Shown here piece by piece: positions 50,782-57,032 of a stretch of 64,000 nt of DNA; the stretch's first letter is position 1, and every line of letters starts with the position of its first letter. The position numbers were made by a program, and so were the translations under genes. The DNA comes from Geothrix paludis (GTDB taxonomy: Bacteria > Acidobacteriota > Holophagae > Holophagales > Holophagaceae): positions 62,001 through 126,000 of the forward strand of contig NZ_JAKZLC010000001.1 of the NCBI RefSeq assembly GCF_022808815.1, given 5' to 3'. The notes under the pieces were generated by a model. That model did not search any database, was not told the origin of the DNA, and saw nothing but the letters and a program-made list of their open reading frames with translations.

Positions 50782-53220
50782 TCAGGGCTTGCGGAAGCCG
50801 ACCTGGGTGAAGGTCAGGCGCAGGTCCGGCTGCAGGGGCAGGGGGCTGAGGGCGCCGGTCTCGCCGTGGACGGCGACCTGGGCCTCCAGGGTGTGGAGCC
50901 AGGGCAGCTCCTCCACGAGCTGGGTCAGGCGGCCCAGAGTCTCGCCCAGGCCGTTGCCGGGCGGCAGGTGCATCCGCTCGAGGACGTCGGCGATGTCCAG
51001 ATCCGTGAGCGGGGTGATGCGCAGGATGGAGCCCACGCCCTGGCGGTGGAAGCGCCAGATGGGTCCGAAGTCGGGATCCGTGGAGAGGTTGAGCCCCACC
51101 CTGGGGCCCCGCCGGTCGGCGGGTTCCGGGAGGTTCGTGACGGGGACGCCGAAGAGCCCCATGAGCTCCCGGGCCTGGGTCACGGAGAGGATCGCGTGGG
51201 CGGAATCGGGCAGCTTCTCCACCAGCTGCTCCACGCGCCGCCGGGCCTCGCCGGCGTTGATGTCCGCGTAGCCCTGGAACCGGCCCGGGGGCTGCCGGCG
51301 GAAGTGGGCGTACTGGACCACCTTGGACAGGGCCAGGGCCGCCGACTCCGGGAAGCGGTAGGAGGGGAAGGTGCGGTGCATGGCGCCCCCCTCGCCCAGG
51401 GCGGCTGATCCCACGGGGATGGCCCCGCTCACGCCCATGAGGGAGAGCAGGGTCGGCTTGGCGATGCCCGTGGTCTGCTCGGCCCGCACGGCGGCCCGCC
51501 GGATGGCCCGGGCCACCAGGGCCGGGTCGCAGTCCCCCAGGCAGGCGAAGGAGGCGATGAGGGCGTCCACCTCGGGATGCTCCAGAGCCTCCCGGCAGGC
51601 CCGCTCGTAGTGCTCCGCCGTGGCCATGGCATGGAGGTCCACCACGCCGGGACCCGCGATCCGCATGCCGTGGGATTCGCAGGCATCCGCGCAGATGGTG
51701 GCCACGCCGCCGGAGTTGCTGACGATGGCCACCCGGTCGCCCCGGGGCAGGGGCTGGTGCGACAGCAGCAGCGCGATGTCGAACAGGTCCTCCAGGGTGT
51801 CCGCCCGGATCACGCCGGCCTGGTGGAAGAGGGCCTCCACCTCCGCGTCGTTCTGCGGGCTCGCCGCGATGTGGGCCTGGGCCACGCGCCGCCCGGCATG
51901 GCTCCGGGCGCTCTTCACGCAGAGCACCGGCTTGCGGTGGGAGATCCGGCGGGCCAGCCGGGCAAAGCGGCGGGGATTCCCAAAGGTCTCCAGGTAGAGC
52001 AGGGCCAGGTCCGTGTCCGGGTCCTCCTCCCAGTACTGGAGCAGGTCGTTGCCCGAGACGTCGGCCCGGTTTCCGGCGGAAACGAAGGAGGAGAACCCCA
52101 GCCCGCGCTCCGCGGCGTACTGCAGGATCACCACGCCCAGGGCTGCGGAGTGGCTGAAGAAGCCCACCCTTCCGCGGGGGGGCATCACGGTGGCCAGGCT
52201 GGCGTTCAGCTGGACCGCCGCATGGGTGTTCAGCAGCCCCAGGCAGTTGGGGCCCACCAGGCGCGCGCCCCGGCTGCGGGCGAGGCGCACCAGCCGCTCC
52301 TGGCGGCGGGCTCCCTCCGGACCGGTCTCGGCGAACCCGGCCGTGAGGACCAGGAGGCCGCGCGCGCCCTTGTCCAGGGCCCGCCGGGCGAGGGCCGACA
52401 CCTTGGCCGCCGGCACCGCCAGGACCACCAGATCCGGAGGCTCCGGCAGGGAGGCCAGGGAGGGATAGGCCTGGACGCCTTCGATGGCCTTGGCCCTGGG
52501 ATTGACCGGATAGACCGCGCCCTGGAATCCGCCCCGGAGGATGTTGCGGAAGATGGTGCTCCCCACGGAGCCGGGATCCCGGGAGGCGCCCACCACGGCC
52601 ACGCTGCCCGGCCGCAGGAGCGGCACCAGAGAGTTGGCGGTGGCCACCCGCTCGCGGATCTCGGCCCGCTCCCGCTGGGCCTCGGGGGCGCTCAGGGGGA
52701 AACGCACATGGATGATGCCGCCCTCCATGGCCCGGGTGGTCTCGAACCCGGAATCGCGGAAGACATTGACCATCTTCTGGTTCTCATGGAGCACCTCGGC
52801 TTCGAAGCCGACGTAGCCCGCGCCCGCCGCCAGACCTGCGAGCCGCTCGAGGATCAGCGTGCCGATGCCCCGGCCCTGGTGGGCGTCCGCGATCATGAAC
52901 GCGACCTCGGCGACGGCCCCGCCATCGCCCACGTAGTTCCCCAGGCCCAGCACCTGCTGCTCCGCCCCCTCGCCCTCGATGGCCAGGAGGCAGGCCCGCT
53001 GGCGGGGGTTCTCGTCGCAGAGATCCTCCACGAACTTGCGGGAGACGCTCGACACGCCGCCCATGAAGCGCATGGCCATGCTCTCCCGGGAGAGGCCGCT
53101 GATGAATGCCTCCACGCGGTCCGCATCCTCCGGGGAGGCGATCCGCAGGAGGACGCCCTGGCCGTCCTTCAGCAGGACGAATTCCCGGTAGCCTGCGCCG
53201 TCAGGGATGATGCTGAACAC
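50782..53220 (-). CDS. GNAT acetyltransferase fused to clipped NDP-forming acyl-CoA synthetase-like domain (Pat-like)
   Basis: 812 residues. A GNAT domain lies at ~18-175 (MIADAHQGRGIGTLILERLA holds the acetyl-CoA loop). Then come a CoA-binding domain (PGSVAVVGASRDPGSVGSTI, ~205), a succinyl-CoA-ligase-like region (GFFSHSAALGVVILQYAAER, VSAGNRADVSGNDLLQYW), and a short C-terminal remnant of an ATP-grasp domain. The phosphohistidine region reads QAHIAASP where active ligases have SHTG, and the ATP-binding first part of the ATP-grasp is missing, so ligase activity is unlikely. Salmonella Pat has a related but opposite domain order; N-terminal GNAT forms are known in actinobacteria. Likely acetylates the divergent acyl-CoA synthetase; the ligase-like part may sense acyl-CoA. 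Confidence 0.85.
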   Translation of the reverse strand: MFSIIPDGAGYREFVLLKDGQGVLLRIASPEDADRVEAFISGLSRESMAMRFMGGVSSVSRKFVEDLCDENPRQRACLLAIEGEGAEQQVLGLGNYVGDGGAVAEVAFMIADAHQGRGIGTLILERLAGLAAGAGYVGFEAEVLHENQKMVNVFRDSGFETTRAMEGGIIHVRFPLSAPEAQRERAEIRERVATANSLVPLLRPGSVAVVGASRDPGSVGSTIFRNILRGGFQGAVYPVNPRAKAIEGVQAYPSLASLPEPPDLVVLAVPAAKVSALARRALDKGARGLLVLTAGFAETGPEGARRQERLVRLARSRGARLVGPNCLGLLNTHAAVQLNASLATVMPPRGRVGFFSHSAALGVVILQYAAERGLGFSSFVSAGNRADVSGNDLLQYWEEDPDTDLALLYLETFGNPRRFARLARRISHRKPVLCVKSARSHAGRRVAQAHIAASPQNDAEVEALFHQAGVIRADTLEDLFDIALLLSHQPLPRGDRVAIVSNSGGVATICADACESHGMRIAGPGVVDLHAMATAEHYERACREALEHPEVDALIASFACLGDCDPALVARAIRRAAVRAEQTTGIAKPTLLSLMGVSGAIPVGSAALGEGGAMHRTFPSYRFPESAALALSKVVQYAHFRRQPPGRFQGYADINAGEARRRVEQLVEKLPDSAHAILSVTQARELMGLFGVPVTNLPEPADRRGPRVGLNLSTDPDFGPIWRFHRQGVGSILRITPLTDLDIADVLERMHLPPGNGLGETLGRLTQLVEELPWLHTLEAQVAVHGETGALSPLPLQPDLRLTFTQVGFRKP

Positions 53221-53388: not shown

Positions 53389-55065
<1,677 letters not shown>

Positions 55066-55196
55066 CCACCGCCCTGGGAAGCCCGCTGCAACTTACCTGA
55101 GGACAGGTATTGGAAGGGCGGGCTCCCCATCGAAGAATGGAGATCCGTCCCCGTTCCCGCCATCCATCCCCTGAGCCACGCTTTCCGGAGGTTCCC

Positions 55197-57032
55197 ATGA
55201 AGTACCTGGACGACGCCCGCGACATCAAGTTCAACCTCCTCGAGTGGCTGGATCTGGATGCGGTCCTGAAGACCGAGCCCTACCAGGAGGTCGACCGCGA
55301 CCAGCTGGCCATGGTTCTCGACGAGGCGCTCAAGGTGGCCAAGGGCAGCGTGGCCGCCTGCAACGAAGTCGGCGACCGGGTCGGCGCCCAGTGGGAGAAC
55401 GGGAAGGTGCGGCTGCCGGACGGGTTCGCCGAAGCCTTCGAGGACCTCGCCTCCGGCGGATGGATCAGCGCCACCATGAACCCCGAGTTCGGCGGCATGG
55501 GCCTGCCGGAGGCCGTGGGCACCGGCATCAGCGAGTACCTCATGGGGGCGAATACGGCCCTGGGCCTCAAGGTGCTGCTCACCCGCGGCGCCGCCCACCT
55601 CATCGAGACCTTCGGGAGCGACGAGCTGAAGGCGGCCTACTGCGAAAAGATGTACACCGGGGAGTGGACCGGCACCATGTGCCTCACCGAGGCCGGCGCC
55701 GGCAGCGACCTGGGCGCGCTCACCACCAAGGCCGTGAAGCAGGCGGACGGATCCTACCTCATCACTGGCGAGAAGATCTTCATCACCAGCGGCGACCACG
55801 AGCTGGTGCCGAACATCATCCACGCCGTGCTGGCCCGGACGCCGGACGCTCCCGCGGGCCCCAAGGGCATCAGCCTCTTCGTGGTGCCCAAGGTCCGGGT
55901 CAACGCCGACGGCAGCCTCGGCGCCCCCAACGACGTGGCCTGCGCCGGCATCGAGCACAAGCTGGGCATCCACGGGTCGCCCACCTGCAGCCTGGTGTTC
56001 GGCACCAACGGCGGCACCCAGGGCTTCCTGCTGGGTCAGGAAGGGCAGGGCCTCGCCCACATGTTCGTGATGATGAATGCCGCCCGGTACGAGGTGGGCG
56101 TCCAGGGCCTGGGCAATGCCTCCGCCGCTCACCAGGCGGCCCTGGCCTACGCCAAGGAGCGTCTGCAGGGCCGCGCTCCCGGGGCCGCCAAGGGCGTCGG
56201 GCAGTCGCTCATCGTCGAGCACCCGGACGTGCGCCGGATGCTCCTCATGCAGTCCGCCTACGTCCAGGCCATGCGCGCCCTCGTGACCTACACGGCCTGG
56301 TGCATGGACATGGCCCACGTCTCCGTCGGCGAGGAGAAGGACCGCTGGCAGGGGCTGGTGGAGCTGTTCACCCCCGTCTGCAAGGCCTGGTGCTCCGACT
56401 GGGGCTTCCGCGTGACCGAATGGGCCCTCCAGACCTTCGGCGGCTACGGCTACACCATGGAATACCCCGCCGAGCAGTACCTCCGCGACTGCAAGATCGC
56501 CTCGATCTACGAAGGCACCAACGGCATCCAGGCCCTCGACCTGGTGGGCCGCAAGTTCCGGATGCAGGAGGGCAAGCCCGTGAAGGCCCTGATGGGCCAG
56601 GTGGGGGCTGCGGTCCAGTCCCTGGCCGCGGATCCCGTCCTTGGTCCCTCCGCCCGGCAGCTGGGCGAGGCCGCCAAGGCGCTGGGGACGGTGCTGCAGG
56701 AGATCCCCGCCCACGAGAACGCCGCCCTGCTGACGGGCCTGAATGCCGTCCCCATCCTGGACATGGTCGGCCATGTGGTGGCGGGCCACCTGCTGCTCCA
56801 GCAGGCCGTCCTGGCCAAGGGGAAGCTCGCCGCGCTGCTGCAGGAGCGGGGCGTGGACGCCGGCGATGCCAAGGCTTTCCGGGCCCTCCTGGCCGGCAGC
56901 TCCGAGGCCGCCTTCTACCAGAACAAGGTCCAGGCGGCGATCCACTTCGCCCACCGGGGCCTGCCCCTGGTGGCCGCCCAGGCCGTGGCCCTGCGCGCCG
57001 GCGAGACTGCCCCCATGGAGGCGGTGTTCTAG
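55197..57032 (+). CDS. Acyl-CoA dehydrogenase with C-terminal extension (DMSP/AidB-like large type)
   Basis: 611-residue FAD enzyme oxidising an acyl-CoA to enoyl-CoA and passing electrons to ETF. The start at ATG 55197 has CGGAGG ahead. Motifs: TMCLTEAGAGSDLGALTTKA (FAD/substrate), HKLGIHGSPTCSLVFG, FGGYGYTMEYPAEQYLRD and the catalytic Glu in ASIYEGTNGIQALDL. A C-terminal ~130-residue helical extension is typical of the long group that includes DMSP-CoA and 3-methylmercaptopropionyl-CoA dehydrogenases. It ends at a terminator. Likely works with the acyl-CoA synthetase just upstream and with EtfAB elsewhere in the window. Confidence 0.9.
   Translation: MKYLDDARDIKFNLLEWLDLDAVLKTEPYQEVDRDQLAMVLDEALKVAKGSVAACNEVGDRVGAQWENGKVRLPDGFAEAFEDLASGGWISATMNPEFGGMGLPEAVGTGISEYLMGANTALGLKVLLTRGAAHLIETFGSDELKAAYCEKMYTGEWTGTMCLTEAGAGSDLGALTTKAVKQADGSYLITGEKIFITSGDHELVPNIIHAVLARTPDAPAGPKGISLFVVPKVRVNADGSLGAPNDVACAGIEHKLGIHGSPTCSLVFGTNGGTQGFLLGQEGQGLAHMFVMMNAARYEVGVQGLGNASAAHQAALAYAKERLQGRAPGAAKGVGQSLIVEHPDVRRMLLMQSAYVQAMRALVTYTAWCMDMAHVSVGEEKDRWQGLVELFTPVCKAWCSDWGFRVTEWALQTFGGYGYTMEYPAEQYLRDCKIASIYEGTNGIQALDLVGRKFRMQEGKPVKALMGQVGAAVQSLAADPVLGPSARQLGEAAKALGTVLQEIPAHENAALLTGLNAVPILDMVGHVVAGHLLLQQAVLAKGKLAALLQERGVDAGDAKAFRALLAGSSEAAFYQNKVQAAIHFAHRGLPLVAAQAVALRAGETAPMEAVF

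Follow-up and report, generated by a model that had tools for sequence, protein, structure and literature searches.

A predicted type II protein acetyltransferase without the ATP-grasp lid heads an acu-type operon in Geothrix paludis

Introduction

What can a protein acetyltransferase do with a fused acyl-CoA ligase module from which half of the ATP-grasp domain is missing? The question is raised by a gene for a protein of 812 aa in the window analyzed here, i.e. a stretch of 64,000 nucleotides from Geothrix paludis to which all coordinates refer. In a review of the type I and type II GNATs, the ligase module of these proteins is stated to be inactive, in type II for want of a catalytic histidine, and the control of Pat-type acetyltransferases by the dead module is described as not completely understood (PMC8556138). 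In the Bacillus system, as reported, AcuA acetylates AcsA and AcuC reverses this modification; AcuC is in turn inhibited by AcuB, which binds AMP or Ap4A (PMC13121692, PMC13039410, PMC11910552). In the open-licence literature (titles and beginnings of abstracts), neither shortened type II Pats nor acetylation in Geothrix or Holophaga were found.

Results and Discussion

Domain layout

The 812-aa protein (Table 1) has the layout of a type II GNAT, i.e. an N-terminal GNAT domain and, C-terminal to it, an acyl-CoA synthetase module that comprises a CoA-binding and a Succ_CoA_lig domain (Pfam: Acetyltransf_3 (GNAT), residues 24-160; CoA_binding_2, 206-331; Succ_CoA_lig, 349-485). The closest named relative comes from Geothrix sp. 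SG200 (99%), and among solved structures the nearest belong to ADP-forming ligases, to E. coli PatZ and to the S. lividans Pat GNAT (4u5y), the last of which superposes on the GNAT domain of the model with Z 25.2 and rmsd 1.5 over 164 aligned residues. The type II protein of S. lividans, SlPatA, is likewise described as having the GNAT at its N-terminus and, after it, an NDP-forming acyl-CoA synthetase module (PMC8556138); unlike SlPatA, which was aligned over the GNAT only, the Geothrix protein lacks the ATP-grasp lid and heads an acuB-acuC pair. Because the ATP-grasp half, complete in full-length relatives, is incomplete here, we file the protein as a shortened variant of the type II GNATs and not as a typical member.

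Table 1 Features of the locus in window coordinates.
Feature	Coordinates	Strand	Remarks
Short type II GNAT protein	50782..53220	(-)	GTG start, 812 aa
GNAT acetyltransferase domain	52681..53220	(-)	residues ~1-180; AEVAFMI (Glu105), QGRGIG acetyl-CoA loop
CoA-binding domain	52201..52623	(-)	residues ~200-340; GASRDP kept
Succ_CoA_lig flavodoxin-like domain	51766..52176	(-)	residues 349-485; conserved more strongly than any other part
His450 of QAHIAASP	51871..51873	(-)	aligns with the SHTG phosphohistidine of ADP-forming ligases
Swivel (ligase-CoA) domain	51286..51738	(-)	residues ~495-645
Junction where the ATP-grasp lid is missing	51097..51144	(-)	residues ~693-708
ATP-grasp C-terminal lobe remnant	50851..51096	(-)	residues ~709-790, DPDFGP...RITPLTD
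AcuB-type protein, 208 aa	50124..50750	(-)	two CBS and one ACT domain; matches the solved AcuB of G. stearothermophilus, 1.1e-45
AcuC-type Zn-dependent deacetylase, HDAC family, 383 aa	49003..50154	(-)	PF00850, 1.3e-85
AMP-forming acyl-CoA synthetase, divergent, 558 aa	53389..55065	(+)	ends with DLPKTISGKIRR...; presumed target
Acyl-CoA dehydrogenase	55110-57032	(+)	3' of the synthetase

The missing ATP-grasp lid

A preliminary description of the interval 50782-51220 (residues ~667-812 of the 812-aa ORF) had claimed that the ATP-binding half of the ATP-grasp domain was lost, and alignment columns, Pfam matches and an AlphaFold2 model compared with a full-length control all confirm this. In the 812-aa protein, 18 residues separate ARELMGLFGVPV from STDPDFGPIWRFHRQGVGSI. 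Among 112 non-redundant proteins, comprising 42 full-length (879-945 aa) and 70 short (737-818 aa) ones, the lid columns of the alignment hold 76-85 residues in the full-length relatives and 5-22 in the short ones; the missing part is the N-terminal half of the ATP-grasp (the lid), which carries the beta-histidine 'HK' motif. The Pfam family ATP-grasp_5 (221 positions) is matched from 2-5 to 220-221 by all five full-length relatives scanned, whereas the 812-aa protein is not matched at E up to 1. Short forms that do match begin at about position 99-109 of the family: three of the five short relatives scanned (L070, L072 and L101) match from position 100-109 onward only, and the other two (L056 and L106) have no match at E up to 0.1.

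The gap is common to all 44 non-redundant proteins of the Holophaga/Ignavibacteria clade, i.e. the 812-aa protein itself and 43 others that are 47-99% identical to it, and is therefore neither an assembly or frameshift artefact nor recent decay. In the AlphaFold2 model (mean pLDDT 87.9), helix 680-689 leads straight into strand 707-715, and the C-terminal lobe is still folded (strands 707-715, 719-726 and 729-735; helices 740-749 and 758-771; strand 775-783). The full-length control, L109, modelled by the same folding method (mean pLDDT 87.6), has a lid at ~711-785 (E711-713, H716-726, E730-734, E748-752, H755-771, E781-785). Alignment and model had been named as checks in the preliminary description, and both leave a stub of the C-terminal lobe in place of a complete ATP-grasp fold.

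An ADP-forming acyl-CoA ligase is the likely ancestor of the module. The alpha-type domains and the ATP-grasp end of ADP-forming acyl-CoA synthetases (8wzu, 4-hydroxybutyryl-CoA synthetase; 4ybz, ACD1) superpose on the model; for 8wzu, chain residues 1-698 correspond to model residues 196-804 (Z 40.1, rmsd 2.6, 577 aligned). The Geothrix protein differs from these enzymes in the absence of the lid, the beta-histidine and the DxN pair and in the added GNAT. E. coli PatZ (type I Pat; 9it0, 9isq) has an inactive ligase module fused to a GNAT, as predicted for the Geothrix protein, and its module superposes with Z 33.0 and rmsd 4.1 over 573 aligned residues, but its GNAT is C-terminal, and 703 of its chain residues span what takes 618 in the Geothrix model.

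Catalytic residues of the ligase module

With the lid, the beta-histidine (HK) has been deleted. For the phosphohistidine motif, the preliminary description had proposed an alteration, QAHIAASP for SHTG, and this stands for the surrounding residues but not for the histidine: His450 aligns with the catalytic histidine of SHTG, and its retention was left unsaid in that description. At this position, the 44 clade proteins have H in 38 cases, R in 3, K in 2 and V in 1, and the Thermaceae short forms have a gap at the alpha-phosphohistidine in 23 of 23. The Thermaceae short genes (L072 and other Meiothermus/Thermus-group loci) also lack the phosphohistidine loop. The swivel domain has SNSGGV where full-length relatives have TNAGGP or SNAGGP. 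The DxN pair of the remaining ATP-grasp lobe is present in 33 of the 42 full-length proteins but in 0 of 44 from the Holophaga clade, 0 of 3 from Thermomonosporaceae and 1 of the 23 short Thermaceae proteins. The genome itself (96.65% complete), searched for ATP-grasp_5 at E up to 0.001, has only two matches, one in a frame of 715 aa (C4:97441) and the other in a frame of 413 aa (C1:532568), both outside the locus.

Given the loss of the lid and the beta-histidine, the absence of DxN in 44/44 clade proteins, and only two ATP-grasp_5 frames elsewhere in the genome, a dead ligase module, as the preliminary description had supposed, is well supported by sequence. Could the ligase nevertheless be active with a separate ATP-grasp subunit acting in trans, as in the two-subunit archaeal enzymes? 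The kept His450 and the two ATP-grasp_5 frames of the genome would fit such an arrangement, but both frames lie away from the locus and, by size alone, a succinyl-CoA ligase beta chain would account for the 413-aa frame and a complete fused ligase for the 715-aa one; with SHTG and TNAGGP altered and DxN lost, we consider this exceedingly improbable.

Among the full-length relatives, both phosphohistidines are retained in 31 of 42, and these proteins may be working ligase-acetyltransferase fusions. Those with both phosphohistidine motifs include L107-L124, L126, L140, L150-L152 and others. The retention of both histidines in 31/42 proteins does not fit the inactive type II module of the review (PMC8556138). 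One or both histidines are missing from the other 11, of which 9 are actinobacterial (L068, L071, L074, L079, L080, L082, L083, L084 and L086; the other two are L125 and L161), and the review's statement on inactivity may, for this reason, rest on actinobacterial members (PMC8556138).

Separate losses of the lid

To place these losses, we used a maximum-likelihood tree (86 rows) from a quick method with SH-aLRT support only; the lid, the remnant and the His loop were left out of it. The lid was lost in at least three lineages on this tree, i.e. the Holophaga/Ignavibacteria clade (30 rows on a stem of 0.79, with support 100), the Thermaceae (13 rows) and the Thermomonosporaceae (3 rows with support 86); the short label needs 3 changes, every one of them forced by starred branches. 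In AU tests, for which the groups were named after this quick tree was seen, a single origin of the short form, with all short proteins joined, was rejected (p-AU 3.5e-60), as was a union of the Holophaga clade with Thermaceae (p-AU 0.002). One acidobacterial genome (G330) has a full-length (L122) and a short (L130) type II GNAT together.

The full-length sister of the Thermaceae clade, L161, and the full-length neighbours of Thermomonosporaceae, L068 and L074, already lack the histidines, which suggests that in these two lineages catalysis was lost first and the lid later. For the Holophaga/Ignavibacteria clade, no full-length intermediate without histidines was found.

Conceivably, the lid was trimmed neutrally, the ligase module of a Pat being inactive anyway, and the protein is an ordinary type II Pat that works exactly like S. 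lividans PatA. Consistent with such trimming are the inactivity that the review ascribes to the module of type I and II GNATs (PMC8556138) and the earlier loss of the histidines in two of the three lineages. By sequence, however, inactivity is not the rule of the family, because 31/42 full-length relatives keep both histidines and 33/42 keep DxN, and a long stem (0.79) leads to the Holophaga/Ignavibacteria clade, whose genes are tied to acuBC; this explanation is therefore unlikely. A natural Pat without the lid, arisen three times, would indicate that control can dispense with ATP binding, the parts kept for control being the CoA-binding, flavodoxin and swivel domains.

The acu-type operon and a proposed switch

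The short type II GNAT gene is the first of an operon, with the adjacent AcuB (CBS-ACT) and AcuC (HDAC) genes downstream, and is separated by 168 bases from the divergent synthetase gene. This context was absent from the preliminary description and is the larger finding of the analysis. Bacillus acuABC is likewise described with the acetyltransferase first, followed by AcuB and AcuC, and an oppositely transcribed AMP-forming synthetase adjoining (PMC13121692). Bacillus AcuA, however, is almost a GNAT alone, without a ligase module (PMC8556138). Where a stand-alone GNAT would be the first gene, the fusion protein sits instead, and it is better described as a shortened type II Pat in AcuA's place in an acu-type operon. 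The synthetase and the acyl-CoA dehydrogenase that follows it (53389-57032) hint that the regulated unit may be a pathway of acyl-CoA degradation.

In a survey of loci with identity of at least 46.5% (58 distinct sequences, some of which are halves of one gene on two contigs), acuB and acuC were both present within 3.5 kb in 42 of 43 loci with at least 2.2 kb downstream; the lone exception, L081, is a 528-aa actinobacterial frame admitted by the identity cut. On an Ignavibacteriales contig (L063:5443-6533), acuC matches as two separate pieces, possibly through a frameshift or sequencing error. An AMP-forming synthetase was found within 4.2 kb in 43 of 48 loci with at least 1 kb upstream, the five without one being L137, L133, L063, L056 and the misfiled L081. 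Several relatives (e.g. L127, L131 and L134) have a 672-679-aa AcsA just upstream on the same strand; of four such neighbours scanned, these three pass the NCBI AcsA equivalog cut-off and the fourth falls just under it (721.9 vs 724.95 bits). In Geothrix, the substrate is uncertain because the neighbouring synthetase is MbcS-like but scores under the cut-off of that model (417 vs 850 bits) and, within the genome, the nearest AcsA relative is encoded away from the locus (C3, 47%).

We consider it likely that the 812-aa protein serves as acetyltransferase in an acu-type switch that acts on the neighbouring synthetase, with the dead ligase module serving as scaffold and acyl-CoA-sensing body. The GNAT domain would acetylate the catalytic lysine (..PKTISGK..) of the AMP-forming acyl-CoA synthetase and turn it off, AcuC would remove the acetyl group again, and AcuB, as a CBS-ACT adenylate sensor, would restrain AcuC. 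The acetylated lysine presumably sits in the PxxxxGK-type end of the synthetase. Its position fits K549 of B. subtilis AcsA as described (PMC13121692, PMC13039410, PMC11910552). With the lid and the beta-histidine deleted, the phosphohistidine loop altered and DxN gone, the module is predicted to be unable to work as a ligase, and the remaining CoA-binding, flavodoxin and swivel domains together with the folded ATP-grasp stub, all under strong selection, would most likely form an oligomer scaffold and an acyl-CoA-sensing regulatory body for the GNAT. A role as CoA/acyl-CoA sensor is plausible since it is in line with the review's account of type I/II GNATs (PMC8556138) and GASRDP is kept. Against the proposed switch stand the retention of His450 in most clade members, for which a purely structural role gives no obvious reason, the 5/48 loci without a nearby synthetase, the Thermaceae loci read, where acuB-acuC is not beside the short gene, and a strong AcuB in 3 of 5 Deinococcota genomes without a Pat match.

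In a 2026 paper, the acu operon is described as distributed in Firmicutes (PMC13121692). In the loci analyzed here, from Acidobacteriota and Ignavibacteriota, AcuB and AcuC are paired with an acetyltransferase other than AcuA. The presence of AcuB beyond Firmicutes is not in itself new, because the Thermus protein TTHA0829 has been suggested to be an AcuB (PMC13039410).

AcuB across genomes

In Acidobacteriota, every one of the 16 genomes with the clade gene has AcuB at E up to 1e-25 (in G251, the contig ends before the gene tail), compared with 4 of 29 genomes with only a full-length gene, 8 of these 29 being judged full by frame length alone. In Deinococcota, strong AcuB matches (2.1e-64 or better) occur in 29/29 short-gene genomes; the six full-length genomes have weaker matches in 4 (best 7e-44) and none in 2, and the five without a Pat match have AcuB strong in 3, weaker in 1 and absent in 1. 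The two short-gene genomes of Thermomonosporaceae that were searched contained no AcuB of strong grade (best 8e-11). A link between AcuB and lid loss, strong by count, is not demonstrated by the contrast test: only three independent contrasts are available, and about two of them are in agreement, none is opposed and one shows no difference (sign test median p = 0.5), and so no significance is possible. In this test, 30/30 Holophaga-clade rows were scored AcuB-present, including L100, whose contig ends before acuB and whose genome is outside the search, and Deinococcota matches of 1e-30 to 1e-44 were scored AcuB-absent.

One may speculate, with considerable doubt, that the three lid losses gave up exactly the ATP-gripping lobe as nucleotide sensing moved to a separate AcuB, which is in the same genome in two of the lineages, and that full-length relatives with the catalytic residues would represent ancestral two-headed enzymes, making acyl-CoA and acylating proteins, from which the short regulators arose.

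Conservation and selection

Across 21 Geothrix pairs from 7 species, pN/pS was 0.011 for the flavodoxin domain, 0.126 for the GNAT, 0.142 for the ATP-grasp remnant, 0.194 for the junction and 0.319 for the helices before the gap. The value for the GNAT, along with the Glu105 region and the Q-G-x-G loop, catalytic motifs that are kept in its sequence, argues against a GNAT that is dead too, in a protein that would be wholly a binding scaffold or synthetase inhibitor, as AcuA partly is; B. subtilis AcuA is reported to lower AcsA activity by complex formation besides acetylation (PMC11910552), which lends this reading some support, but we regard it as very unlikely.

Conservation was compared in hand-picked groups that left out actinobacterial proteins (12 of the 44 clade proteins, 8 of the 23 from Thermaceae, and 21 of the 42 full-length ones in three groups of 8, 9 and 4). 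In both short groups, conservation is lower in the remnant than in the GNAT (0.41 vs 0.58 in the clade and 0.58 vs 0.73 in Thermaceae), whereas in all three full-length groups it is higher in the ATP-grasp remainder than in the GNAT (0.63 vs 0.47, 0.53 vs 0.38 and 0.65 vs 0.51). A shift from ligase-led to acetyltransferase-led constraint would look like this reversed order. The flavodoxin-like domain of the supposedly dead ligase ranks first in conservation among the five domains in 5/5 groups, short and full-length.
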